A DNA stretch of 64,000 bases from Kutzneria buriramensis. Lineage in GTDB: Bacteria > Actinomycetota > Actinomycetes > Mycobacteriales > Pseudonocardiaceae. The notes under the pieces are model-generated. The model saw nothing but the letters and a program-made list of their open reading frames with translations. It was not told the origin of the DNA and searched no databases. Positions within the stretch are counted from its first letter, which is position 1. The number at the start of each line of letters is the position of its first letter. Shown here one piece after another: positions 19,635 to 40,202 of the stretch. The stretch is from NCBI RefSeq assembly GCF_003387475.1, contig NZ_QUNO01000002.1, forward strand, positions 372,001 through 436,000, given 5' to 3'. Position numbers and translations under genes: made by a program.

Positions 19635-20170
19635 TCCGCCTCCTCGATCCGCTTGCGGGCCCAGGTCTTCCCGTTCACGGGCGCGGCCGGCGGCCGGACG
19701 GTCCTCGCCACGCCCAGGTGCATCTCGTCGGCGGGCTTGGCCAGTTCCGTGTCGACCGGCGGCACATAGGCCGCGTTGACCGTCAGCACGAAGGAGGCCC
19801 GCGGCGGGAACCCCAGCTCGCTCGGCATCGCCGCGCCGATCTTGAGGTCCAGCCCGGTGTCCTCGTCGGTCAGCGCGATCAGCGCCTGCCCGAGCAGGTC
19901 GTGCTCCGTCTCGGGATCGGCGGCGTGCGCCTGCACCACATAGGACAGTTCGTAGCGACGGGTCGGCGGCCGCCGACCGAGCAGCGTGCCGTCCGCGGCC
20001 CGCACGTCGTCCCAGCCGGCGGACCGGCCGCGCGCGTCGTCCCGCAGCCCGAACAGCGTGAGGGAGACGGCGGGTTGGCCGCCATCGGGCACGGCAAGCA
20101 GAACGGCGGTGCCGTCCGGCAGCCGTTTCCGCAGCAGGTCGCGCAGCGCCTGGTCGACGGTGGGGATCAC
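19631..20170 (-). CDS. DUF4255 protein (Pvc16-like cap/terminator)
   Basis: This 179-aa protein resembles the DUF4255 (Pvc16) family, which caps the tube and sheath at the distal end of eCIS particles. Supporting features are the length and the N-terminal IPTVDQALRDLLRKRLP, the central RRYELSYVVQAHAADPETEHDLLGQAL helix and the SFVLTVNAAYVP strand. The GTG start (20170) begins the leftward operon, 44 bp from the conserved element at 20214. Confidence 0.85.
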   Translation of the reverse strand: MIPTVDQALRDLLRKRLPDGTAVLLAVPDGGQPAVSLTLFGLRDDARGRSAGWDDVRAADGTLLGRRPPTRRYELSYVVQAHAADPETEHDLLGQALIALTDEDTGLDLKIGAAMPSELGFPPRASFVLTVNAAYVPPVDTELAKPADEMHLGVARTVRPPAAPVNGKTWARKRIEEAE

Positions 20171-20213: not shown

Positions 20214-20291
20214 ACAGGCGTCCTTTCGGACCCGACCGGTTCGCCCCTAGGTGCAGTCCTGGCCGCCCCAGGTCGCGCCCCACCGTCGCTG
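20214..20291. promoter_or_regulatory. Conserved eCIS intergenic element, copy 1
   Basis: This 78-bp stretch in the divergent region shares long identical blocks with 38820-38896 (acaggcgtcc, tcgcccctaggtgc and cgtcgctg). Both copies lie 44 bp upstream of a leftward start codon and in front of a rightward gene. It is probably a regulator binding region or promoter for both eCIS operons. Confidence 0.75.
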
Positions 20292-20352
20292 TGAATCTGG
20301 GTGTTTCCCGGTCACGATTTCGTCGTCGCAAGTGTCTGTCAGGGAGGGCCCG

Positions 20353-21864
20353 ATGCCAAGCAGCTACCTCGCGCCCGGCGTGTACATGGAGGAAGTCTCA
20401 TCGGGCTCGCGGCCGATCGAGGCCGTCGGGACCGCGGTCGCCGCCTTCGTCGGATTCGCCGAGAAGGGGCCGGTCAACGAGCCGGTCCTGGTCACCAGCT
20501 GGACCCAGTTCAAGCGTTCCTTCGGCGACTTCGTCGAGGGCTACCACCTCGCGCACGCCGTCTACGGGTACTTCCTCAACGGTGGCGGCACCGCGTACGT
20601 CGTCCGCGTCGGAGGGGTCGCGGACGGCGACGGCGCCGCGCCGGTGGCCGAGCTGCCGTCCGCGGCGGACGGCCGGGTCGCGCTGACCGTGTCCGCCAAG
20701 CAGGCCGACACCGCCGGGCTCAGCGTCGAGGTGCAGCCGGCCGGCGACCCCACCGACGACAGCTTCAAGCTGGTGGTCAAGCAGGGCGGCCAGCCCGTCG
20801 AGACCTTCGACAACGTCACCACCCGCCGCGGCGCCAACAACGTCGTCACGGTCGTGAAGGCGCAGTCCAAGCTGATCACCGTCGAGGACACCAAGGGCAA
20901 GGTGCTGGCGGTGCCGCAGGTCGGCGAGGTCGCGCTGCCCGCCGGCGGCGACGCGCCGGTCAGCGCCAACGACTACGTCGGCGACTCCGCCGACCGCACC
21001 GGCTTCGGCGGCCTGGAGGCGATCGACAACGTCACCATGCTGTGCGTGCCGGACCTGATGGCCGCCTACCAGCACGGCAAGCTGTCGCTGGACGACGTCA
21101 AGGCCGTGCAGCTGGCGATGATCGCGCACTGCGAGCTGATGTCCGACCGCGTGGCCATCCTGGACACCCCGCCCGGCCTGAACGCCCAGCGCGTCAAGGA
21201 ATGGCGGATGGACTTCACCGGCTACGACTCCAAGTACGCGGCCATGTACTGGCCGTGGATCAAGGTCGCCGACCCGGTGGCCGGCAAGCAGGTCTTCGTG
21301 CCGCCGAGCGGCCACATGGCCGGCATCTGGGCCCGCAACGACGCCAACCGCGGCGTGCACAAGGCCCCGGCCAACGAGGTGGTGCGCGGCGCGGTCACGC
21401 TGGAGCTCAACATCACCAAGGGCGAGCACGACACGCTCAACCCGGTGTCGGTCAACTGCATCCGGGCGTTCCCCGGCCAGGGCATCCGGGTGTGGGGCGC
21501 GCGCACGCTGTCCAGCGACCCGGAGTGGCGCTACCTCAACGTGCGGCGGCTGTTCAACTACGTCGAGAAGTCGATCCTCCAGGGCACCAACTGGGTCGTG
21601 TTCGAGCCCAACGACCCGAAGCTGTGGGACTCGGTCAAGCGGACCATCACCATGTTCCTGCGCCGGGTGTGGCGGGACGGGGCGCTGTTCGGCCGGACGC
21701 CGGCCGAGGCGTTCTTCGTCAAGTGCGACGAGGAGAACAACCCGCCGGAGAACCGCGACGCCGGCATCCTGACCGTGGAGCTGGGCATCGCGCCGGTCAA
21801 ACCGGCCGAGTTCGTGGTGTTCCGCATCTCCCAGTTCTCCGAGGGCGCTTCGCTCGAAGAGTAA
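20353..21864 (+). CDS. Contractile tail sheath protein (eCIS)
   Basis: This 503-aa phage-tail-sheath-like protein forms the contractile outer tube. The N-terminus YLAPGVYMEEVSSGSRPIE is typical of the family, and the conserved C-terminal part (ALFGRTPAEAFFVKCDEENNP... FVVFRISQF) forms the inter-subunit meshwork. The ATG at 20353 follows gggagggcc. A single sheath gene is seen, unlike the several copies in PVC or Afp. It is the first gene of the structural operon. Confidence 0.95.
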   Translation: MPSSYLAPGVYMEEVSSGSRPIEAVGTAVAAFVGFAEKGPVNEPVLVTSWTQFKRSFGDFVEGYHLAHAVYGYFLNGGGTAYVVRVGGVADGDGAAPVAELPSAADGRVALTVSAKQADTAGLSVEVQPAGDPTDDSFKLVVKQGGQPVETFDNVTTRRGANNVVTVVKAQSKLITVEDTKGKVLAVPQVGEVALPAGGDAPVSANDYVGDSADRTGFGGLEAIDNVTMLCVPDLMAAYQHGKLSLDDVKAVQLAMIAHCELMSDRVAILDTPPGLNAQRVKEWRMDFTGYDSKYAAMYWPWIKVADPVAGKQVFVPPSGHMAGIWARNDANRGVHKAPANEVVRGAVTLELNITKGEHDTLNPVSVNCIRAFPGQGIRVWGARTLSSDPEWRYLNVRRLFNYVEKSILQGTNWVVFEPNDPKLWDSVKRTITMFLRRVWRDGALFGRTPAEAFFVKCDEENNPPENRDAGILTVELGIAPVKPAEFVVFRISQFSEGASLEE

Positions 21865-21894: not shown

Positions 21895-22356
21895 ATGCCT
21901 GCCGGACTCGGCCCCAACCAACCGAGCGACGCGCTCACCGCGGCCCGCTTCTCCATCACCATCGACGGCTACGAGATCGCCTCCTTCGCGGAGCTGCTCG
22001 GCATCACCACCGAGGTCGAGGCGGTCGAGCTGATGGAGTCCACGGACAAGGCCGTGGTGCTCAAGAAGCTGCCCGGCAAGACCAAGCCGCCGACGCTGGT
22101 GCTCAAGCGCGGCAAGAACACCAGCATGGAGCTGTGGGCGTGGCACGAGGCCGTGCTCAACGGCGACATCGTGGCCGCCCGCAAGAGCTGCTCGCTGGTG
22201 ATGTACTCCACCGACGGCAAGCCGGTCGCCCGCTACCACCTGGAGCACGCGTGGCCGGCCAAGCTGGAGATCGGCGCGTTGAAGGCCGGCGCCAGCGAGG
22301 TGCTGATGGAGACCGTCACCCTGGTCTGCGAGCACATCCAGCGGGTGGCGCCGTGA
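21895..22356 (+). CDS. Inner tube protein, gp19-like (eCIS)
   Basis: This 153-aa tail-tube protein stacks in hexameric rings inside the sheath. Supporting features are the N-terminal RFSITIDGYEIASFAELLGI and the C-terminal EVLMETVTLVCEHIQRV, both typical of T4 gp19-like eCIS tubes. A ribosome-binding site (gaaggagac) precedes the ATG. The GTG of the chaperone gene overlaps its stop. Two further paralogues lie at 24938 and 25406. Confidence 0.93.
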   Translation: MPAGLGPNQPSDALTAARFSITIDGYEIASFAELLGITTEVEAVELMESTDKAVVLKKLPGKTKPPTLVLKRGKNTSMELWAWHEAVLNGDIVAARKSCSLVMYSTDGKPVARYHLEHAWPAKLEIGALKAGASEVLMETVTLVCEHIQRVAP

Positions 22357-22742
22357 CTGCCGTGCAGGAGACGCTGCGCACGGAGTACCCGTTCACGCTG
22401 CCGCGCGGCTACGTGGACGAGAACGGCCGGGTGCACCGCAACGGCGTCATGCGGCTGGCCACGGCCCGGGACGAGATCACCACGCAGGCCGACCAGCGCT
22501 CCAAGCAGAACCCCGCGTACCTCACGGTGTTGCTGCTGGAGCGCACGGTCACCGAGCTCGGCGAACTGTCCGCGGTGGACACGTTCGTCATCGAGAACCT
22601 GTTCGCCTCGGACCTGGCTTTCCTCCAGGACCTGTACCGGCGCATCAACCAGGACGGCCACACCGAGGTCGCCGTCAGCTGCCCGCACTGCGGCAAGGAC
22701 TTCGGGGTCGACATCGCCGGTGATGCGCCGGGGGGATTCTGA
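22353..22742 (+). CDS. Phage tail assembly chaperone-like protein (P2 gpE/TAC type), zero-frame product
   Basis: This 129-aa protein sits between tube and downstream structural genes, as gpE does in phage P2. It starts with EYPFTLPRGYVDENGRVHR and has VMRLATARDEI, FLQDLYRRINQDG and a CPHCGK zinc-knuckle-like motif near the end. The GTG start overlaps the tube stop (GTGA). Close to the end lies the heptamer G GGG GGA (22730-22736), then a TGA and a stable stem. A -1 shift there would fuse the protein to the small open frame that follows (183 aa in total). Confidence 0.85.
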   Translation: MTAVQETLRTEYPFTLPRGYVDENGRVHRNGVMRLATARDEITTQADQRSKQNPAYLTVLLLERTVTELGELSAVDTFVIENLFASDLAFLQDLYRRINQDGHTEVAVSCPHCGKDFGVDIAGDAPGGF

Positions 22743-22783
22743 CGTGCGCGGCTGACCGGATCTGGGAGGAAGTCGCGTACGTC
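22730..22783 (+). promoter_or_regulatory. Putative programmed -1 frameshift signal (slippery heptamer and stem-loop)
   Basis: The heptamer g ggg gga (22730-22736) is in phase with the zero frame (ggg at 22731, gga at 22734). After a 4-base spacer, 22741-22753 can pair with 22771-22783 over 13 bp (two G-U pairs), leaving a 17-base loop. Downstream, the -1 frame is open to 22903 and lacks an ATG, GTG or TTG start. This is inferred from sequence only. Confidence 0.6.
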
Positions 22784-22903
22784 GCCTACTACCTGCACTG
22801 GACCTTCGGCTCGATCCTCGACCTGGAGCACCCGGTGCGGCAGCGGATGATCGCCGAGATCGGCCGCATCCACACCCAGCTGGCGGAGCAGAACGAGATG
22901 TAG
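22739..22903 (+). CDS. Small eCIS protein (DUF6760-like), probably made by -1 frameshift from the chaperone gene
   Basis: This frame encodes ADRIWEEVAYVAYYLHW, then LDLEHPVRQRMIAEI and IHTQLAEQNEM. The pattern resembles the roughly 50-aa DUF6760-type protein seen next to the tail-assembly chaperone in actinobacterial eCIS loci (recognised from memory, moderate certainty). No ATG, GTG or TTG start exists in this frame; only CTG at 22739 or ATT at 22736 could start it. The -1 frameshift route is therefore favoured. CTG overlapping the TGA (ctga) is the alternative. The TAG at 22901-22903 is followed by the ribosome-binding site of the next gene. Confidence 0.75.
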   Translation: MTCAADRIWEEVAYVAYYLHWTFGSILDLEHPVRQRMIAEIGRIHTQLAEQNEM

Positions 22904-22917
22904 GAGGGGAGGGGCGG

Positions 22918-24927
22918 ATGCGCTGGCCGTTCCGCAGGCGTGCCACCGAGACCGGCGAGCCGGTCGCCGACTCGGCCGTCGCCGAGCGCGGTGCTGTCGA
23001 GTCCGGTGTCGTCGAGCGCCCGCAGCACCGGGAGTGGTCCGCCCTTCCGCCGCTGCCGGCCACCTTCGCCGCGAAGGCGCCGCTGGTCATCGGCCCCGCC
23101 CCGGTGCTGCCGCCGCTGCCCGGCCGGCGCGAGCCGATGCCGGCCAGCGACCCGGCGCTGCGCGGTTCCGTGCAGGGCATCGCCTCCGTGCTGAAGCCGG
23201 TGCGGTTCGAGCGCGCCGCCGCCGAGGTCGTGCACCGGCCGGTCCGGCGGCGGGTCGTCGTCCGGCCGGAGGCTCCCGTCGAGCCCGAGCCACTGACCTA
23301 TGTGGACGAACAGCACGTCGAGGAGCCGCGCGAGCCCAGGGTTCCGCACCGCGCCCCGGCCTGGCTGCGCTACACCCCGCCGGCGTGGATGATGCAGCAG
23401 CAGGGCGACGAGCCGGGCATCCCGGACCTGCCGCTGCCGATCATGGAGACGCCCACGCCGCCTCCGCCGCCACCCGTGCCGGTGGTGAAGCCCAAGCCGG
23501 AGCGGCGGATGACCTTGGGGCAGGCCCGGCGGTTGGGCCTCGGCGCGCCGATTTCCCCCGCCTCGCAACAGAATGCCACCCAGGACGAAGACCCTGAGGA
23601 GCCTGCTCCAGCGGCCGTCCACCACCCACCCGAGCCTGTCCACCAGGTGCCGGAACTCGTGCACCGGCCTGCCACGCCGGAGCCGCAAGCACCGGACGTT
23701 CCGACGACGCAAGAAGCCACGCCGCTGATCCACGAATCGGTGCCGGGTGAGCTCGCCACGGCCATGCGCCAGACGCACGGCGTGGACGTCGCCGACGTAC
23801 CGGTGGTCCGTGGCCCGGTGGTGTCCGCGCAGGCGCGATCCCTTGGCGCGCGGGCATTCACGCGCGCCGGCAAGGTTCATCTGCCGGACGAGGCCGGCCC
23901 CGTGACCTCGCCGAAGGCGCGTGGCCTCATCGCGCACGAACTCGTGCACGCCGTGCAGCAGCGCACCCTCGGGCTGTCGCTGCCGTCGCCGTCGTCCGAG
24001 CACGGCCAGGCGCTGGAGGCCGAAGCCGTTGCGGTGGAACGCTTCTACGCCGGCGAGCCCGCGGCCCCGCAGCCGCTGATCCACGCGCCCCGCAACACGC
24101 CTGCAGCGCCGGTCGTCGACACGCACGCCCAACTCGCGCCCACCGCAACCGTCACCACCACCCCGGCCGTCACCCCGCCGCAGCAGCCCCAGACGCAGCA
24201 GCAGCCGGTGATCGACAGCCGGGTGCGGCAGGAGGTCGACCGGCTCGCCACCGAGACGGCCCGGCGCGTCGTCGAGCAGGAGTGGCAGAACCCCTCGCTC
24301 ACCCCGCAGCAGCGACAGGCCCTCGGCCTACCCGCGCAGCAGCAACAGGATCAGCAGCAGGACCAGCCCGACCCGACCGCCGGCTTCCTCGAAGCGGCGG
24401 TGCTGTCGCGGCTGCGGCCGTCACGGATGCGGCACGCCCCGCCGGCGCCGCCCGATCCCCAACACCCGTCCCAGCCGCAGCACGGACCGTTGTCGCAGAC
24501 CACCGCGACAACGGTTCCGGCGCAGACGCCCCAGGGCACCACGCCGCAGCAGCAACAACAGCAGCAGGACCAGCCGCCGGTCGACTCCACCGCGGGCTTC
24601 CTGGAGGCGGCGGTGCTGGGACGCCTGACCCACCACGGCCACCACCTGCACCGCGACACCGTCCAGCAGCAATCGCAGACGCCGCAACAACAGCAGGCCC
24701 ACCAGTCGAGCCAGCCGCAGTCGCAGGCCCTCACCCAGCACACCGCCAGCACCACCGCCGCCACCACCAGCGCGACCGCCGACACCGCCGCGCACCACCG
24801 GGTCGACATCAACGACCTCGACCTGGAGGAGCTGTCCGCCCGGCTCTACACGCGGCTGCGCAGCCGGCTGCGTCTGGAGCTGCTGGTCGACCGGGAACGC
24901 GCCGGCCAGTTGACCGACTACCGATAG
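22918..24927 (+). CDS. DUF4157 (eCIS-core) protein with Pro/Gln-rich regions
   Basis: This 669-aa protein has a Pro-rich N-terminal half, a DUF4157 domain at about residues 275-385 with zincin-like HELVH at 340-344, and a Gln-rich C-terminal half. DUF4157 is a hallmark of eCIS loci and is thought to act in cargo handling or as a metalloprotease-like module. Two near-identical units (TAGFLEAAVL at about residues 487 and 558), each after a Gln run, and a helical end (DLDLEELSARLYTRLRSRLR) are visible. It lacks the usual toxin domain. Confidence 0.88.
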   Translation: MRWPFRRRATETGEPVADSAVAERGAVESGVVERPQHREWSALPPLPATFAAKAPLVIGPAPVLPPLPGRREPMPASDPALRGSVQGIASVLKPVRFERAAAEVVHRPVRRRVVVRPEAPVEPEPLTYVDEQHVEEPREPRVPHRAPAWLRYTPPAWMMQQQGDEPGIPDLPLPIMETPTPPPPPPVPVVKPKPERRMTLGQARRLGLGAPISPASQQNATQDEDPEEPAPAAVHHPPEPVHQVPELVHRPATPEPQAPDVPTTQEATPLIHESVPGELATAMRQTHGVDVADVPVVRGPVVSAQARSLGARAFTRAGKVHLPDEAGPVTSPKARGLIAHELVHAVQQRTLGLSLPSPSSEHGQALEAEAVAVERFYAGEPAAPQPLIHAPRNTPAAPVVDTHAQLAPTATVTTTPAVTPPQQPQTQQQPVIDSRVRQEVDRLATETARRVVEQEWQNPSLTPQQRQALGLPAQQQQDQQQDQPDPTAGFLEAAVLSRLRPSRMRHAPPAPPDPQHPSQPQHGPLSQTTATTVPAQTPQGTTPQQQQQQQDQPPVDSTAGFLEAAVLGRLTHHGHHLHRDTVQQQSQTPQQQQAHQSSQPQSQALTQHTASTTAATTSATADTAAHHRVDINDLDLEELSARLYTRLRSRLRLELLVDRERAGQLTDYR

Positions 24928-24937
24928 GGGAGACGTC

Positions 24938-25402
24938 ATGCCACTCAACGACCAGTCGGTGATCGGCCTGGCCAACCGGTTCACCGTCAAGGTGACGCCG
25001 GGCGAGCACGACCTGGGCAGCTGGACCAAGGCCGAGGGCCTGGACGTGACCTGGGACGTCGCCGACTACCGGGCCGGCGACTCCGGCAACCAGCGCTGGT
25101 ACTTCCCGGCCGCCACCAAGTACAGCCACGTGCGGCTGTCCCGGGCCGCCGCGCAGGGCGACTCGCAGAAGGTCAAGGACTGGCTGAGCCAGACCTCCTT
25201 CCACCACAAGGGCGGCATGGAGGTGCAGATCGTGCTGCACGACTCGTCGACCAAGAAGGTGCTGGACTGGCACCTGAAGAACGCCATGCCGGCCAAGTGG
25301 TCCATCGCCAACTTCGAGGCCGGCGGCAGCAACGTGGCCATCGAGACACTGGAGCTGGTGCACGAGGGCTTCCTCGACGACGACGTCAGCTACGGGGGCT
25401 GA
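24938..25402 (+). CDS. eCIS tube/baseplate tube protein, paralogue 2
   Basis: This 154-aa gp19/Pvc5-like protein has NRFTVKVTPGEHDLGSWTKAEGL at the N-terminus and SNVAIETLELVHEGFL near the C-terminus. It is probably a tube-initiation or baseplate-hub adaptor rather than the bulk tube subunit, since a third paralogue follows directly. The ATG is preceded by aggggagacg. Confidence 0.9.
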   Translation: MPLNDQSVIGLANRFTVKVTPGEHDLGSWTKAEGLDVTWDVADYRAGDSGNQRWYFPAATKYSHVRLSRAAAQGDSQKVKDWLSQTSFHHKGGMEVQIVLHDSSTKKVLDWHLKNAMPAKWSIANFEAGGSNVAIETLELVHEGFLDDDVSYGG

Positions 25403-25405
25403 GCC

Positions 25406-25858
25406 GTGCCGATGAACCCGATGGCCATGCTCGGCCTGGTCACACGCTTCCACGTCTCGGTCGACGGCGTCGACCTGGGCGGCTGGGCGCGGTGCTCGGG
25501 GCTGAGCGTGGACTTCAAGCCCGAGCCCTGGTACGAGGGCGGCGACTACCAGCATCCGACCTACCTGCCGGGCCGCATCGAGTACCCGCCGATCACCTTG
25601 CAGCGGGCCATGAACGCGCAGGACACGCCGCGCGTGCAGGCCTGGCTGAGCAGCAAGGCGTCGAGCTGGGTGACCGCCAACAGCAGCGGCGGCGGTGGCA
25701 CCGCGCAGATCACCCTGTTCGACGCCAAGGCGCAGAAGGTTGCCAGCTGGTCGCTGCGCAACGTGTACCCGAGCAAGTGGGACGGGCCGGAGCTGGACGC
25801 CCGCACCCTCGGGGTGGCCATCGAAAGCCTGCAACTCGTGCATGAGGGGTTTCTGTGA
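25406..25858 (+). CDS. eCIS tube/baseplate tube protein, paralogue 3
   Basis: This 150-aa paralogue of the preceding protein (TRFHVSVDGVDLGGWARCSGLSVDFK at the start, VAIESLQLVHEGFL at the end) begins with GTG at 25406, three bases after the previous stop. Tandem gp19-like genes are typical of eCIS, where they form the tube initiator next to the VgrG hub. A palindromic intergenic segment follows before the LysM gene. Confidence 0.9.
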   Translation: MPMNPMAMLGLVTRFHVSVDGVDLGGWARCSGLSVDFKPEPWYEGGDYQHPTYLPGRIEYPPITLQRAMNAQDTPRVQAWLSSKASSWVTANSSGGGGTAQITLFDAKAQKVASWSLRNVYPSKWDGPELDARTLGVAIESLQLVHEGFL

Positions 25859-31032: not shown

Positions 31033-31571
31033 TGCGTGGCACCGTGCCCGGTCTGCCGAGTGCCGTTCCGCTGACGGCCATGCTGCCCGGCATCTTCCAG
31101 GAGGACCCGTTCACCGTCCGGTTCGTCGGCGGCTTCGACGACGTGCTGGCTCCCATCCTGTCCACTTTGGACAACCTGGGTGCGTATCTCGACCCCGCGC
31201 TGGCGCCCGAGGACTTCCTCGCCTGGCTCGCCGGCTGGGTCGGTCTCGAGCTGGACGAGAGCTGGCCGGTCGAGCGCCAGCGCGCCGCCATCGCCCGCGC
31301 CGCCCAGATGTATCGCATGCGGGGCACCGTGTCCGGTCTCCGGGACAACCTCGAGGTCCTCACCGGCGGACGCGCCCAGGTCGCCGACAGCGGCGGCGTC
31401 GCGTGGTCCGTCACCCCCGGCGCCCCTTTCCCCGGCCAGGACCAGCCGCGGCTGGCCGTCCGCGTTTCCGTGGCCGACCCGTCGGCCGTGTCCGTCAGTG
31501 CCGTCGACGCCGTCGTGTCCGCCGCCAAGCCGGCGCACGTCGTGCACAGGGTGGAGGTGGTGGGGTCGTGA
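31032..31571 (+). CDS. Phage tail protein I-like baseplate protein (Pvc12-like)
   Basis: This 179-aa gpI-family protein has LPGIFQEDPFTVRFVGGFDDVLAPILSTLDNL at the start and the MRGTVSGLRDNLEVLTG core, then a C-terminal receptor-type strand region (AAKPAHVVHRVEVVGS). It partners baseplate J at the wedge periphery, where tail fibres normally attach; no fibre gene is visible nearby. The stop overlaps the GTG of the next gene. Confidence 0.9.
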   Translation: MRGTVPGLPSAVPLTAMLPGIFQEDPFTVRFVGGFDDVLAPILSTLDNLGAYLDPALAPEDFLAWLAGWVGLELDESWPVERQRAAIARAAQMYRMRGTVSGLRDNLEVLTGGRAQVADSGGVAWSVTPGAPFPGQDQPRLAVRVSVADPSAVSVSAVDAVVSAAKPAHVVHRVEVVGS

Positions 31572-33373
31572 TCGTGTGTCGGAGTTGTGGCTTCCACAAC
31601 AAGGATGCCGACTCTTTCTGCGGGTCCTGCGGTGAGTTCCTGGAGTGGACCGGGGAGAAGATCACCCCCAAGCCGGCTCCCGTCGTCGAGCCGGAGCCGG
31701 AGGAGCCCGCGCCGGCGAAGCGCAGTCTCCTGGAGCGGATCCAGTCGTTCGTGTACATGGACGTCGGCGAGCGCGACCCCCTGCCCGCGCCCACCGGCCC
31801 TCCCGGCTTCGGTGGCCCGCCCCGTCCCGGCCCGCCCGGCGTCGGCGGCCCCCCGCGCCCGCCCGGTCCTCCCGGCGTTGGCGGTCCTCCCGGCGTAGCC
31901 GGTCCTCCCGGTCCTCCGGGGGTTGGCGGTCCTCCGCGGCCTCCCGGCCCTCCCGGTGTCGGTGCGCCGCCTGCTCCTCCGGCACCTCCCGGTGTCGGCG
32001 GTCCTCCCGGCCCACCGGCCGGCACTGTCGGTCCACCCAAGCCGCCCGGTCCGCCTGGCGTCGGTGGCCCTCCTGGCCCGCCCGCTGGCACCGTCGGCCC
32101 TCCCGCACCGCCCGGCGTCGGTGCCCCGCCAGCTCCTCCGGCACCGGCCGGTGTCGGCGGTCCTCCCGGCCCGCCCGCCGGCACGGTCGGCCCTCCCGCA
32201 GCGGCTGGTGTCGGTTCGCCGCCGGCACCGGTCGGGGTCGCTGGCCCGCCGGCTGGCGTGCCGTCGCCCGTCGGTCCGCCCGGTGTAGCCGGCCCACCGT
32301 CGGCGACCGTAGGTCCCGCCGCTGGAGCGGTGGCTCCGCCCGCACCTGCTGGCCCGCCCACACCCGTCGGGCCGCCGTCGCCCGTCGGCCCTTCGGCGAC
32401 CGGCGGTTCCCCGGCCGCGCCCGAACCCTCCCTCGAACTCCCGACCCCCACCCCCAAGCCCCCCGTCGAGGCCGCGTTAGTCGAACCCCTCCAGTCCGTT
32501 CCCGCCACCCCCAAGCCCGAGCCGCTGTCCGTGCTTCCAGAGCGCGAGCAGAAGCGGGTCACCGCTGTCGTCCGGAGGCCGCCGACACGCCGGCTCCGTC
32601 CCGGTGACTTGATCTGCGGCGATTGCGGCGAGGGCAACGCCGACACCCGGAAGTTCTGCAGCCGTTGCGGCGCCTCGCTGCTCACCGCCGAGGCCGTCAA
32701 GACTCCGTGGTGGCGGAAGCTGCTGCCCAAGCGCCGTACCAAGGTGCGCAAGGCGCTCGAACGCACCGCCAAGGACCGTAGGGCCAAGCGCACCGCCACC
32801 AGCACCGCGTTCAGGGCCGCCTTCAAGACCATCCGGGCCCTCGTCGCCGTGGTGCTCGTGCTGGGCGGCCTCGCCTACGGTTCGCTGCCCGCCGTGCGGA
32901 CCTGGGTCAACGACCGGGTCGCCTCGTGGCAGTCCGACGCCCAGTCGGCTCTGGAACTGAGCTATTCGCCCGTCCACCCGTCGAAGGTCACCGCCAACTT
33001 CGAGGAGCCCACCCACCCCGCCGACCTGGCCGCCGACAGCGTCAGCAACACCTTCTGGGCCGCCCCCACCACCAAGGGCGAGGCCACCCTGGTCTTCACC
33101 TTCGACCACCCCGTCAACATCGACAAGGCCATCATCCAGAACGGCGACAACGACAAGTTCGACCAGTCCTTCCGCGTCGAACGTCTGCACCTGGTCTTCT
33201 CCACCGGCAAGACCGACGACCTCCAGCTCAAGGACCAGCCCGATCCCCAGGAGCTCACCGTCCAGAACGGCCACAACGTCACCAGCGTCGAGCTGCACGT
33301 CATGGCCACCTACCAGTCCCTGCACGGCACCGACGTCGCCATCAGCGAGATCGAACTGTTCCAGCGCAGCTGA
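31568..33373 (+). CDS. Zinc-ribbon, collagen-like, single-pass membrane protein with discoidin-like C-terminus (CisA-like architecture)
   Basis: This 601-aa protein has an N-terminal zinc ribbon (C4, C7, C18, C21), a long GPPGVGGPP-type collagen-like tract (about 78-280), a second zinc ribbon (C350, C353, C364, C367), one membrane helix (about 424-444) and a C-terminal beta-sandwich like F5/8 type C (about 460-600, ending AISEIELFQRS). The GTG at 31568 overlaps the previous stop. The architecture recalls the eCIS-linked Streptomyces membrane protein CisA (from memory), so it may tether particles to the cytoplasmic membrane (inference). Confidence 0.85.
   Translation: MIVCRSCGFHNKDADSFCGSCGEFLEWTGEKITPKPAPVVEPEPEEPAPAKRSLLERIQSFVYMDVGERDPLPAPTGPPGFGGPPRPGPPGVGGPPRPPGPPGVGGPPGVAGPPGPPGVGGPPRPPGPPGVGAPPAPPAPPGVGGPPGPPAGTVGPPKPPGPPGVGGPPGPPAGTVGPPAPPGVGAPPAPPAPAGVGGPPGPPAGTVGPPAAAGVGSPPAPVGVAGPPAGVPSPVGPPGVAGPPSATVGPAAGAVAPPAPAGPPTPVGPPSPVGPSATGGSPAAPEPSLELPTPTPKPPVEAALVEPLQSVPATPKPEPLSVLPEREQKRVTAVVRRPPTRRLRPGDLICGDCGEGNADTRKFCSRCGASLLTAEAVKTPWWRKLLPKRRTKVRKALERTAKDRRAKRTATSTAFRAAFKTIRALVAVVLVLGGLAYGSLPAVRTWVNDRVASWQSDAQSALELSYSPVHPSKVTANFEEPTHPADLAADSVSNTFWAAPTTKGEATLVFTFDHPVNIDKAIIQNGDNDKFDQSFRVERLHLVFSTGKTDDLQLKDQPDPQELTVQNGHNVTSVELHVMATYQSLHGTDVAISEIELFQRS
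31790..32390 (+). repeat. Collagen-like GPPGVGGPP coding repeats
   Basis: This in-frame tract of imperfect 9- to 27-base units encodes Gly-Pro-Pro and Gly-Val-Gly-Gly-Pro-Pro motifs. It is prone to slippage and may vary in length between strains. Antisense frames across it look open but are shadows. Confidence 0.75.
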
Positions 33374-36331: not shown

Positions 36332-38776
36332 TCAGTGCCTGTAGTCGTAGTCCGGTGCGGTCAGACTTCCCGGCGTCACCAACAGGTCCGCATTCCCCGT
36401 CACCCCGGGATTCGCCCCGTCCACCGAAGCCTGCACGGTACGAGGGCCGAGCTCGCTCAACGGGAACACCAGCAGTGACGTGGTGAAACCGCCGTTCCCA
36501 TCCGTCTTACTGGTCGCCGACTCCGGGAAACCGCCCGCATACCGCACCGAGATCCCGCTGGAGGGAGCGAACCCGGTCCCGGTCACGGTGATCACCGCCC
36601 CCGGGGCCCCGACCTCGGGGCTCAGCTTGATCGAGGGAATCGCCACGGATCCGCTCAACGCGACCAGATGCGGCGACCCCACGGCATTGTCGTCGAACTT
36701 CAACGCCGCCGTCCGCTGATCGGGCGTGGTAGCCGCGGCCAACCGACCGGTGGGGCTGAACCTGACGACCACCTGGCACGACTGTCCGGGTTGGACACTT
36801 GTGCAGCCGTTGGTCACCACCGAGAAGTCACCGTTCTGCGTCCCCGAAACCACGGACACGCCAGTCACGACCAGCGCCGAAGCGCCGCCGTTGACCACGG
36901 TCACCGTCTTCTGCACGTTCTTCGCCAACGGCAGCTGCTGCCCGAAGTCCAAGGGATCGGGGCTTGCGGCGAAGGATGGCAGCCGCTGGACGACCGGCGT
37001 GCCGACGCCCTTCAGCGCGACGGTGAACAGCCGCCCGCTTCCCTTGGCGCGCAACGTCAAAGTGCCGGTGCGGGCGACAGTGTCCGTCGGTGAGAACCGA
37101 ACCGTCACCAAGCACGTGTCCACGCCGTTCAGGGCCCCGGTGGTGCAGGTCTGACCACCCACCGAGAACGGAGCCCCGTTCACGGTCACCTGGTCGAAGC
37201 TCAACGGACCGAAGGCGGTGTGGTGCACGGTGACGGTCTGCTCCGCCGTCTGCCCGATGGTCACGGACCCGAAGTCGACGGGGTCGGCCAGCATCCCGGG
37301 CTGGAACGTCCGCACGAACGAGTCCCGGGCCTTGTTGGTGTCACCGGTGACCAGGTCATCGGCATCGGAGTCGAACGCCACCGACGAGCCGTCGCCGGCC
37401 AGCACGGGCAGAACACTGTCGCCGTCCCCAGGAGCGGACTTCAGGCCGGCGGACGCCAGTTCGGGGTGCTGCGACGTCACCAGGTTCACCACAACCACCT
37501 GGCACGCCTGGAATGTCGGCCCGGGCGCGGACGACGACGCCAGCACGGCGGACTTCTTGAGCAGGCCGATCGGCTCCGGGTGGAAGCAGTTGAACGGACC
37601 CACGGTCCCGGTGCTCTCCGTGATCTGCGGACTGTCGGTCGCGAACGCCAGGTAGTGGCCGTCAGCGGACAGCGCCGGATACCGGCCGTCGTGTTCGGCG
37701 CCGGCAAGGTCCTTTGACGCTACGGACGTCTTCGTCACGGCCCCAGGGCCGGTGGCGCGGTCGACGAGGTGCACGACTGCGCTGGCCTCATCGCCAGCGG
37801 CGTTCAGGCTCGTGAAGGCCACGCGCCCGCCGTCCCTCGACGTCGTCGGCTCGAAGTACCGGGCCCGCGAATCGAGCGGGTTCCCGTCCGTGCCTACGTC
37901 CAGGCGCGTGACCTTCTTGGAGCGAAGGTCGTTGCTGACGATGGCGTAGAACTCGCCGTCGGTCAGATCCGACTGGTACCGAACGGAAGCGAGCAGCTGG
38001 CTGCCGTCGGCGGACAGCGCGGGATCGCAGAAGTCCTCGGTACGGGAATCGGGCAGCGGCATCGTCTCGTTCACGGAGTCGGTCGCGGCGGGCGCCGACA
38101 ACGCGCCGTTGGCCGCCTTGTGCAACGTGGTCGCCACCAACGTGTCCTGCTGCACGGCGCTGCTGTAGCAGCCCCACCCCTCGAGCCACGCGATGCGACC
38201 GGCGTCGGCGGACAGCCGCGGCGAATGCGCCTGCTCGCCACCCTCGCCATGGACCCGCACGTCCGGCGGCAGCACGCTGACGGTGGTCGTCGCGCACTGC
38301 GCGTTCAACGAAGGACCCCGGTCGCACACGACGATCGCGCTACGGCCGTCGCCGGCGCTGTCGGAGATGTTGCCGGCCTCGGTGGTGTACGCGATGTACC
38401 GCCCGTCCGCGGAGATCGACGGCTCGGAGCTGTTCCCCCGCCCCGGCGCGCCCTCCGGCCCGGTGCTGATCAGCGTCGTGGTGCCACCGACCAGGTCCCG
38501 CACGTACACGTCGGTGAAGTCGCTCTCGGCGTCCCTCGGGTCCAGCCGGACGCCCTGGAACGCCACGAACCGGCCGTCGGCCGACAGCGCGTTCTGCGAG
38601 CCGCCGCCGGTGGCCTGGGATCCGTCATTGCGCACCGAGGCGCGCACGGTCGTGCCGGGCGACACGGCCGCGTCGGCGGCCGACCGCTGGCCGATCACGA
38701 GCAGGACGGTCGTCGCCACCAGGAGGCCGACCGCCGCCACGAGGGCGACCAGGGGCCCGCGGACATGCAAGCTCAT
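36332..38776 (-). CDS. Secreted beta-propeller protein with choice-of-anchor D and IPT/TIG-like domains
   Basis: This 814-aa protein begins with a signal sequence or anchor (residues 9-31, VALVAAVGLLVATTVLLVIG), followed by a TolB/PD40-like propeller (repeated LSADGRFVAF, ISADGRYIAY, LSADGHYLAFATD; about 60-470). Two choice-of-anchor-D/Hydin-like domains (about 500-720; PVDFGSVTIGQTAEQTVTV and PLDFGQQLPLAKNVQKTVTV) and an IPT/TIG-like C-terminus (about 725-800) follow. Its promoter region shares the conserved element of the eCIS operon, so it is probably eCIS-linked. An envelope-exposed role or scaffold is likely. Confidence 0.85.
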   Translation of the reverse strand: MSLHVRGPLVALVAAVGLLVATTVLLVIGQRSAADAAVSPGTTVRASVRNDGSQATGGGSQNALSADGRFVAFQGVRLDPRDAESDFTDVYVRDLVGGTTTLISTGPEGAPGRGNSSEPSISADGRYIAYTTEAGNISDSAGDGRSAIVVCDRGPSLNAQCATTTVSVLPPDVRVHGEGGEQAHSPRLSADAGRIAWLEGWGCYSSAVQQDTLVATTLHKAANGALSAPAATDSVNETMPLPDSRTEDFCDPALSADGSQLLASVRYQSDLTDGEFYAIVSNDLRSKKVTRLDVGTDGNPLDSRARYFEPTTSRDGGRVAFTSLNAAGDEASAVVHLVDRATGPGAVTKTSVASKDLAGAEHDGRYPALSADGHYLAFATDSPQITESTGTVGPFNCFHPEPIGLLKKSAVLASSSAPGPTFQACQVVVVNLVTSQHPELASAGLKSAPGDGDSVLPVLAGDGSSVAFDSDADDLVTGDTNKARDSFVRTFQPGMLADPVDFGSVTIGQTAEQTVTVHHTAFGPLSFDQVTVNGAPFSVGGQTCTTGALNGVDTCLVTVRFSPTDTVARTGTLTLRAKGSGRLFTVALKGVGTPVVQRLPSFAASPDPLDFGQQLPLAKNVQKTVTVVNGGASALVVTGVSVVSGTQNGDFSVVTNGCTSVQPGQSCQVVVRFSPTGRLAAATTPDQRTAALKFDDNAVGSPHLVALSGSVAIPSIKLSPEVGAPGAVITVTGTGFAPSSGISVRYAGGFPESATSKTDGNGGFTTSLLVFPLSELGPRTVQASVDGANPGVTGNADLLVTPGSLTAPDYDYRH

Positions 38777-38819: not shown

Positions 38820-38896
38820 ACAGGCGTCCTTCGGGCCGCCGCTGCTCGCCCCTAGGTGCGAACCGGGTTGCACCCAGGCGCTCCCGAACGTCGCTG
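38820..38896. promoter_or_regulatory. Conserved eCIS intergenic element, copy 2
   Basis: This 77-bp stretch matches 20214-20291 with one gap, including the exact blocks acaggcgtcc, tcgcccctaggtgc and cgtcgctg. It lies 44 bp upstream of the leftward beta-propeller start, the same distance as copy 1 has to the DUF4255 start, and 35 bp before the rightward membrane-protein gene. Confidence 0.75.
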
Positions 38897-38930
38897 CCCC
38901 CGATCGTGCCAGCGTCCGACACTTTTCGCC

Positions 38931-40202
38931 ATGGGTGCCATCACGTCGCTCGAACAGCCGAGCCTGGCCGTCAATCCCGGCGAGCAGGCCCACTGTGTCG
39001 TGCAGATCCGCAACACCGGCAGCATCGTGGACCAGTTCGCCGTGGACGTCATCGGCGACGCGCAGCAGTGGGCGACCGCCGAGCCGCGCGTCGTGAACCT
39101 GATGCCCGGCGACATGGGCACCGTGTCGCTGACCTTCGCCCCGCCGCGCAGCTCGGAGGCGCGCGCGGGGCAGACGCCGTTCGGCGTCCGCGTGAAGTCC
39201 CGGGAGGACCCGGAGGGCTCGGTCGTCGACGAGGGCGTGATCACCGTCGCCCCGTTCATCGACCTGCGCGCCGAGGTGACGCCGCGCACCTCGCACGGCC
39301 GGATGAGCGGCCGGCACGAGCTGGTGATCGACAACCTCGGCAACTGCCCGGCCGAGGTCGAGCTGATCGCCACCGACACCGAGGAGCGGCTGTCCTTCCG
39401 CTTCCGGCAGCCGACGCTGACGGTGGAGCCCGGCACGGCGGCGTTCGTGCCGTTCACGGCCAAGCCGCACAAGCGGTACCTGCGCGGGGCGGAGCGCAAG
39501 CACCAGTTCCAGGCCACGGTGCTGACCACCGGCGGCGAGCCGGTCAACGCGGACGGCGCGTTCATCCAGAACCAGTTGCTGCCCAAGTGGCTGCTGCCGG
39601 CGCTGGCCGCGCTGCTGGCGTTGATCATCCTGGCCGTCGCGCTGTGGTTCACGGTGATCAAGCCGGAGGTGCAGTCCACGGCCAAGGAGGCGGCGCAGGA
39701 GCAGGTGACGCCGGTCATCTCCATCGCCAACCAGGCCCAGCAGCAGGCGTCCTCGGCGCAGCAGCAGGCCTCCCAGGCGCAGGCGGCGGCCGGCGGCGGC
39801 GCGCCGAAGCCGGGCACGCCGGGCACGGGCACGGGGACCGGCGCGGGCGACGTGCCCGGCACGGACACCGACTTCCGTATCGTGGCCAACGCCCCGGTGA
39901 CCGCGGATCCCAACAACTTCAAGAAGTTCGGCATGGACACGCCGCCGCCGGCGGACAAGACCCTTGTGGTGACGGACTTCCTGCTCCAGAACCCGTACGG
40001 TGACACCGGCATCATCCGGCTCCAGCGGGACAACCAGGTGCTGGCGGAGTTCGGCCTCGGCAACTTCCGGGCCTTCGACTACCACGTCGGCCAGACCTGG
40101 CGGTTCGCCCCGGGACAGCACCTCGTGATCACGGTCAACTGCGCGTCGGCGACCTCGGGCACCTGCCGCAGCTCGGCCTCGTTCTCCGGTAAAATCCAGT
40201 AG
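38931..40202 (+). CDS. Single-pass membrane protein with NEW3/COG1470-like beta domains ('hydrolytic protein' of eCIS loci)
   Basis: This 423-aa protein has two immunoglobulin-like domains at the N-terminus (about 1-215; TSLEQPSLAVNPGEQAHCVVQIRNTGSIVDQF and RAEVTPRTSHG), one membrane helix (about 224-244), a Gln/Ala-rich stretch (QQQASSAQQQASQAQAA) and a C-terminal extracytoplasmic domain (about 310-423). Similar proteins, annotated as hydrolytic proteins, occur in Streptomyces eCIS clusters (from memory). The ATG at 38931 gives the conserved N-terminus. It is divergent from the beta-propeller gene and shares the eCIS element. Confidence 0.82.
   Translation: MGAITSLEQPSLAVNPGEQAHCVVQIRNTGSIVDQFAVDVIGDAQQWATAEPRVVNLMPGDMGTVSLTFAPPRSSEARAGQTPFGVRVKSREDPEGSVVDEGVITVAPFIDLRAEVTPRTSHGRMSGRHELVIDNLGNCPAEVELIATDTEERLSFRFRQPTLTVEPGTAAFVPFTAKPHKRYLRGAERKHQFQATVLTTGGEPVNADGAFIQNQLLPKWLLPALAALLALIILAVALWFTVIKPEVQSTAKEAAQEQVTPVISIANQAQQQASSAQQQASQAQAAAGGGAPKPGTPGTGTGTGAGDVPGTDTDFRIVANAPVTADPNNFKKFGMDTPPPADKTLVVTDFLLQNPYGDTGIIRLQRDNQVLAEFGLGNFRAFDYHVGQTWRFAPGQHLVITVNCASATSGTCRSSASFSGKIQ

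Follow-up and report, generated by a model that had tools for sequence, protein, structure and literature searches.

The DNA analysed here, called the window, is a stretch of 64,000 nucleotides from Kutzneria buriramensis (contig NZ_QUNO01000002.1) that carries the genes of an extracellular contractile injection system (eCIS). Directly after the inner tube gene of this system lies a small gene, here called C, whose product matches phage tail assembly chaperones. A preliminary description of the window, made from its letters alone, proposed that C ends in a programmed -1 frameshift site through which some ribosomes would continue into an overlapping second frame. That frame encodes DUF6760. Judged from sequence comparison, the injection systems related to that of the window very probably share a conserved -1 programmed frameshift that yields a chaperone-DUF6760 fusion. 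The features of the junction between the two frames are as follows.

22353 to 22742, + strand: gene C in the 0-frame, encoding a tail assembly chaperone-like protein of 129 amino acids (aa) with a CPHC motif
22719 to 22724, + strand: GGTGAT, a candidate internal Shine-Dalgarno-like element 5' of the heptamer
22724 to 22742, + strand: the sole stretch in which a -1 shift can enter the second frame, between TGA at 22721 to 22723 (-1 frame) and TGA at 22740 to 22742 (0-frame)
22730 to 22736, + strand: slippery heptamer G GGG GGA, in phase (0-frame codons GGG GGA), recognized from the sequence and from relatives
22736 to 22903, + strand: the -1 frame after the slip, 55 codons and a stop, with the DUF6760 match (PF20546) at 22754 to 22897
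22739 to 22741, + strand: CTG that overlaps the stop in the -1 frame (cTGA), replaced by GTG in many relatives and by ATA, GTA, CTA or TTA in others
22741 to 22753, + strand: 5' arm of the stem, starting within the stop codon, 4 nucleotides past the heptamer
22771 to 22783, + strand: 3' arm of the stem, inside the second-frame codons for EVAYV

C begins with GTG at 22353 and closes with the codons CCG GGG GGA TTC TGA. Six Gs at 22730 to 22735 and the A at 22736 form an X XXY YYZ heptamer in phase with C, and both the 129-aa frame and its heptamer are thus as first described. The -1 frame is closed upstream by the TGA at 22721 to 22723, is open from 22724 and ends with TAG at 22901 to 22903, the end given for it earlier. 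Its segment, previously noted as conserved-looking, matches Pfam family DUF6760 with 33.3 bits, against a gathering cut-off of 27. When recomputed, the predicted fusion again comes to 183 aa (128 + 55). The 13-bp stem reported 4 bases past the heptamer is also present, and two of its 13 complementary pairs are G-U. The statement that the -1 frame lacks ATG, GTG and TTG needs to be narrowed. None of these codons occurs ahead of the conserved part, where the CTG at 22739 to 22741 is the sole NTG; GTG and ATG are confined to the conserved part itself. In many relatives, ATG, GTG or TTG overlaps the stop codon, the arrangement by which a translationally coupled gene pair would be recognized, and the window has CTG at this place.

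The site is rare within the window. Among 207 long stop-to-stop frames (104 + 103 on the two strands, not all of them genes) whose -1 frame stays open for at least 40 codons beyond the stop, only C has GGGGGGA in its last four codons. A different scored heptamer is found in five of the remaining frames, in one case GGGGGAG.

DUF6760 was detected in 5 of the 7 genomes searched in the genus, in 143 of 390 in the family and in 23 of 396 in the phylum, and also in 26 of 301 genomes from the phylum of a locus titled Chloroflexi. Loci up to L314 gave 268 unique junctions, in which identical junctions are counted once and the window's own (L008) is included. These loci are not a random sample. They come from best-match lists with at most 30 loci per genome search, from the best 80 of 570 in one search, and from part of the places listed for the family. 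The set leaves aside L010, L096 and L313 (spurious), L089 (no C found), L190 (no DUF6760 found), L269 to L273 (phage-like, with another extension) and L274 to L280 (the same records as L262 to L268). Fourteen plasmid loci, L316 to L329, were counted apart.

The DUF6760 frame is -1 relative to the chaperone frame in 266 of the 268 junctions, and no junction has the two fused in frame. The exceptions to the phase are L092, where a separate downstream gene lies in phase 0, and L006, where the run has five Gs. An in-phase G GGG GNN precedes the stop in 236 junctions (GGGGGAA in 186, GGGGGGA in 31, GGGGGGG in 15, GGGGGAG in 2, and GGGGGAC and GGGGGCT in 1 each), and an in-phase T TTC CCC or T TTC CCG does so in 10. 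Neither kind was found in 20; within the scanned stretch, four of the 20 (L088, L130, L155 and L268) carry a different in-phase X XXY YYZ. In L155, which belongs to an outlying lineage, an in-phase G GGA AAA occurs alongside a GTG at the stop.

Codon choice at the site points in the same direction. Where Glu follows the slip codon, it is encoded by GAA in 186 of 188 cases, whereas GAA makes up 12.8% of the Glu codons in the remainder of the genes. GGT stands four codons ahead of the slip codon in 143 of the 236 G-run loci and makes up 8% of Gly codons elsewhere. This conserved GGT, as part of GGTGAT or GGTGGT, is a possible internal Shine-Dalgarno-like stimulator. The alternative slip site (L050, L060 to L064, L066 and L127 to L129) consists of overlapping C CCT TTC and T TTC CCN, which end 24 and 21 bases before the stop. 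These loci keep the codon CCT and have CTG or CTA at the stop, and 9 of the 10 have no usual start in reach.

Conservation of the stem was assessed against 100 synonymous recodings per locus, with L006, L092 and L093 excluded. Mean z scores are -2.09 for junctions with GGGGGAA (n = 174), -2.23 for GGGGGGA (n = 25) and -2.18 for GGGGGGG (n = 3), and are near zero elsewhere (-0.29 for the T TTC CC group, n = 10; -0.38 for the group with no heptamer, n = 20). Across 145 unique 69-mers, 83.4% of stem cells pair, compared with 13 to 45% in slid controls. In 46 rows chosen for divergence, 85.3% of stem cells pair. Changes on both sides affect 23 cells; shuffling gives 6.9, with none of 500 shuffles reaching 23, and sliding gives 1 to 15. 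The covariation score of these rows is 0.170, against 0.101 when shuffled and at most 0.065 when slid. For example, the pair 22753/22771 is U-A in the window and C-G in most relatives, a difference of two synonymous changes. At the same position, a stem that differs in sequence (e.g. TAGGCTACC...GGTAGCCTA), with z from -1.7 to -3.7, is present in all 15 loci tested from the Chloroflexota set and viral contigs, none of which has NTG at the stop. No stem beyond that of the recodings was detected in the T TTC CCG loci L127 to L129 or in the plasmid loci L320, L322 and L328. By these comparisons, a structure a few nucleotides past the heptamer is under selection. A different fold was seen in L300 and L303, where the best fold of a longer stretch pairs the G run with a downstream CCCCC, as an alternative to the usual stem.

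Fifty-five of the 268 junctions have no ATG, GTG or TTG between the slip site and the conserved part. Of these, 36 have only CTG, and 19 have no NTG because their stop is TAG or TAA. (L263, with CTA at the stop, was scored as having a start on account of a TTG within the conserved part.) The in-phase heptamer is present in 53 of the 55 start-less junctions, and the remaining two, L059 and L081, combine a shorter G run with the stem. The -1 frame of L264 and L267 opens only 13 bases ahead of the stop, a stretch with no usual start. On a FastTree phylogeny of 266 chaperones, built with the junction end left out, the presence or absence of a start changes at least 27 times, the state with no NTG 10 times and the slip site 8 times.

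The same pattern is found on plasmids from other phyla. A plasmid collection contained 41 records with a chaperone match, 14 of which were examined. Five of the 14, from Cyanobacteriota, Pseudomonadota, Bacillota and Actinomycetota, are start-less and have an in-phase G run. These are Nostoc (GGGGGAA), Brasilonema, Paraburkholderia and Paenibacillus (GGGGGAG), and Rhodococcus pWB1 (GGGGGGA), all with no NTG at the stop. Other GGGGGAA loci have ATG (Rhizobium), CTG (Kitasatospora) or GTG (two Streptomyces), and the two annotated Streptomyces records place the start of the second gene at that GTG. In Nostoc (L318) the annotated DUF6760 start is an ATA, and in Rhodococcus (L327) it lies beyond the stop, which is a sign that annotation found no proper start; these two annotated genes are probably misannotated frameshifted extensions. 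The archaeal locus, from Haloferax, lacks a G run and has an ATG of its own, and in-phase GGGAAAC and AAACCCA occur there. On the Kovacikia plasmid the match is not adjacent, and the DUF6760 profile has no match in L325, L326 or L329.

At the limits used, annotated phage records contained no relatives of C or DUF6760. Six viral-contig records (L256 to L261) have the pattern CTGGGGGAATCNTGACG, and the chaperone and DUF6760 profiles matched nothing there. The viral contigs L269 to L272 carry phage-like chaperone homologues with GAT TTT TT before the stop and a different -1 extension, and are candidate phage frameshift sites.

Taken together, the phase, the heptamer, the stem and the missing starts are most simply accounted for by -1 programmed frameshifting, as the preliminary description had proposed. 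Most ribosomes would read GGG GGA TTC TGA and release the 129-aa C. The hairpin that starts at the stop codon would stall a fraction of ribosomes, and these would slip by -1 on G GGG GGA, where both glycine tRNAs can re-pair with GGG. After the slip, 55 further codons would be translated to give the 183-aa C-DUF6760 fusion. By analogy with lambda G/GT, the site might set the ratio of C to fusion that is needed to assemble the tube on a scaffold. The sequences themselves show how the junction is built, that phase, heptamer and stem are conserved, and that starts are repeatedly absent; from these features we infer slippage, its rate and the roles of C and the fusion. Frameshifting fits the window's lineage, which has only CTG, well.

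Several observations, however, weigh against this reading or add nothing to its support. The same-genus locus L006 (genome G001) has five Gs, which breaks the -1 phase, and may represent a real variant, decay or a sequencing error. The fold energy at the window's junction is unremarkable, in that 37.7% of 1500 random 64-nucleotide stretches of the window fold at least as well, and fold energy alone was for that reason rejected as evidence. (Against dinucleotide shuffles, the window's stem scores z = -2.17, and 5 of 200 shuffles match it.) The DNA is G+C-rich, and the real support for the frameshift site is conservation. Among the 174 GGGGGAA loci, 9 have a weak stem (z above -0.8), and a downstream stem of the type found at G runs was not seen in the T TTC CC group. 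Only 6 pairs are changed on both sides and two slid controls give 7 each, which is not so for the other measures; RNAalifold, run on the same 46 divergent rows, returned no structure.

The remaining difficulties concern start codons. Of the 246 heptamer junctions, 193 have an ATG, GTG or TTG within reach, mostly as GTG overlapping the stop. This GTG is favoured: in the GGGGGAA group with TGA as the stop, the last codon is TCG in 146 junctions and TCC in 12, whereas codon usage is 52:44. The excess suggests either initiation there or a longer stem. Moreover, GTG or ATG occurs in 18 of the 20 junctions with no heptamer. Thus, the fusion is not universal, and these loci suggest that some lineages do without frameshifting. 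Several (L048, L049, L051, L053, L054, L067, L118, L122, L130 and L193) have GTG overlapping the stop with neither a G-run heptamer nor a clear stem, and have perhaps switched from recoding to initiation. Finally, a 2x2 test on 240 junctions showed no significant association between heptamer and missing start (p = 0.54), and an independent-pairs test on the tree was uninformative (p near 1). Both outcomes reflect the presence of the slip site in nearly all loci, and the argument therefore rests on the start-less cases themselves. The alignment of homologues that had been called for thus gives a divided answer. Heptamer and stem are kept well beyond the genus, and the small protein could have its own start, which had been named as the finding that would count against frameshifting, in part of the family and not in the 55 start-less junctions.

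Relatives might use the junction in both ways, making the fusion by frameshifting and a free DUF6760 protein from GTG where this codon is present. This reading is compatible with -1 frameshifting, and we regard it as a serious, if tentative, possibility. Heptamer, stem and GTG co-occur in many loci, and GTG is enriched in the GGGGGAA group, so that initiation, alone or in addition to frameshifting, is likely in some relatives. The window, however, offers only CTG, and L264, L267 and others have no NTG. In the window's own GGGGGGA group, TCG and TCC number 15 and 8, which is near codon usage.

Translational coupling alone is unlikely; for the window itself, a CTG start, which the preliminary description had named as an alternative, has a small but real probability. 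On this reading DUF6760 would be a separate small protein whose translation begins at the NTG that overlaps the stop codon (CTG in the window), and the G run would serve as its Shine-Dalgarno sequence. Coupling would explain the occurrence of GTG at the stop of many relatives beyond codon usage, including the two annotated Streptomyces records, and the GTG or ATG of most loci that have no heptamer, and the five-G L006 retains its CTG. Nevertheless, the in-phase heptamer is kept with no NTG at the stop in 19 of the 268 junctions and in 5 of the 14 plasmid loci, a further 36 of the 268 have only CTG, and few junctions have ATG (5 of 175 in the GGGGGAA group). Furthermore, the run is GGGGG, even though synonymous codons (GGA GGA) would permit GGAGG in the window's group, and the stem would bury the start. 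A sequencing error in the G run, hiding one continuous gene or another phase, is very improbable even though homopolymers are error-prone and L006 has five Gs, because the -1 phase recurs in nearly all junctions from many assemblies with none fused in frame, and the same-genus loci L005, L007 and L009 also have six Gs. Transcriptional slippage on the G run was considered as a further possible route.

If -1 frameshifting sets the amount of the chaperone fusion, deleting or recoding these operons would disturb assembly, and DUF6760 would gain a testable role. Injection systems are both studied and engineered as delivery particles. We lean somewhat toward a broader proposal, in which a single device of G-run heptamer and stop-codon hairpin, inherited from phage tails, has been kept in the injection systems of at least five phyla, where it would set the ratio of chaperone to DUF6760 fusion and govern particle assembly or length. 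DUF6760 would then be the counterpart of lambda T, and the fusion would have been lost only where an overlapping start arose. If true, a recoding event that textbooks describe for phages would also operate in the cellular machines of several phyla. The natural start-less variants provide clean test cases.

In phages, the tail assembly chaperone gene follows the tube gene, as C does. The C junction differs from that of lambda gpG/gpGT in that the injection system is not a phage, the extension is DUF6760, and a conserved hairpin starts at the stop codon; the lambda G/GT slip is not known to need such a stem. Bacterial -1 frameshifting of the dnaX type uses a slip site and a downstream stem, perhaps with an upstream Shine-Dalgarno-like element. 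Compared with that type, the stem at the C junction begins in the stop codon and the slip would occur on G rather than A. A 2022 study by Vladimirov, Gautam and Davidson reportedly deals with tail assembly chaperones of T4-like phages, whose tails are contractile, apparently with more than one product, and may bear on novelty.

As in lambda gpG/gpGT and other phage chaperones, according to the available text of PMC5009743, a small chaperone gene would undergo a -1 slip near its 3' end to gain a C-terminal extension from the -1 frame; the same text gives the ratio of lambda G to GT as 30:1. GGGGGAA in this phase corresponds to about 1000 "fivetwo" slip motifs in SEA-PHAGES phage data (PMC10885494, as far as its text was available), and the 186 junctions with this heptamer share both its sequence and its phase, with the codon GAA re-pairing at GGA. 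Unlike the SEA-PHAGES sites, the window's heptamer is GGGGGGA, and C and DUF6760 have no sequence match in the annotated phage collection.

The Streptomyces coelicolor gene sco4252 is presumably the tube gene of that species. In the accessible portions of PMC10020575 and PMC10066040, sco4251 belongs to the sheath operon sco4253-SCO4251; PMC10020575 lists its product as of unknown function and records its detection by mass spectrometry in at least one purification. By its position, sco4251 would be the counterpart of C. The word "frameshift" is absent from the available main texts of three S. coelicolor injection-system papers (including these two), of a review and of a Roseiflexus paper. In the parts at hand of other papers, the frameshifts mentioned are those of the phage tail-tube (PMC9022992, PMC8718954), the term appears in reference titles only (PMC13222765, PMC10269795) or a phage is concerned (PMC12403621). 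Frameshifted phage chaperones are well known; for contractile injection systems, no report of a frameshift was found among the listed hits that were examined in the literature searched, which was mostly outside subscription journals and in part accessible, and within it the earlier statement that none was known for eCIS loci holds.

The genes that surround the junction are the following.

19859 to 20161, - strand: Pvc16_N match (tail terminator-like), an eCIS hallmark
20251 to 21864, + strand: sheath gene (PF04984, PF17482)
21895 to 22356, + strand: inner tube gene (PF06841, TIGR02241), with a 4-base overlap with C
22918 to 24927, + strand: gene for an eCIS_core domain protein (PF13699), the next gene downstream of the DUF6760 frame

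These domain matches agree with the position after sheath and tube that had been assigned to C. Sheath, tube, VgrG-like spike, gp25, baseplate J and Pvc16_N co-occur in the window as an eCIS gene set. No tape measure family was found among the window open reading frames (ORFs) scanned, and the gene after C/DUF6760 encodes the eCIS_core protein. No AAA+ ATPase gene was found among the same ORFs, for which no search with its own profile was made. A Foldseek search against the PDB gave no match at E ≤ 0.001.

Two more tube-like (gp19) genes lie past the eCIS_core gene, at 24938 to 25402 and 25406 to 25858. Beside the cluster, the ORF at 31403 to 33373 has a NADase_transloc domain match together with zinc-ribbon matches. 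The nearby ORFs at 36332 to 38776 (- strand) and 38856 to 40202 have matches to HYDIN/ASH or Cep192-like Ig domains.
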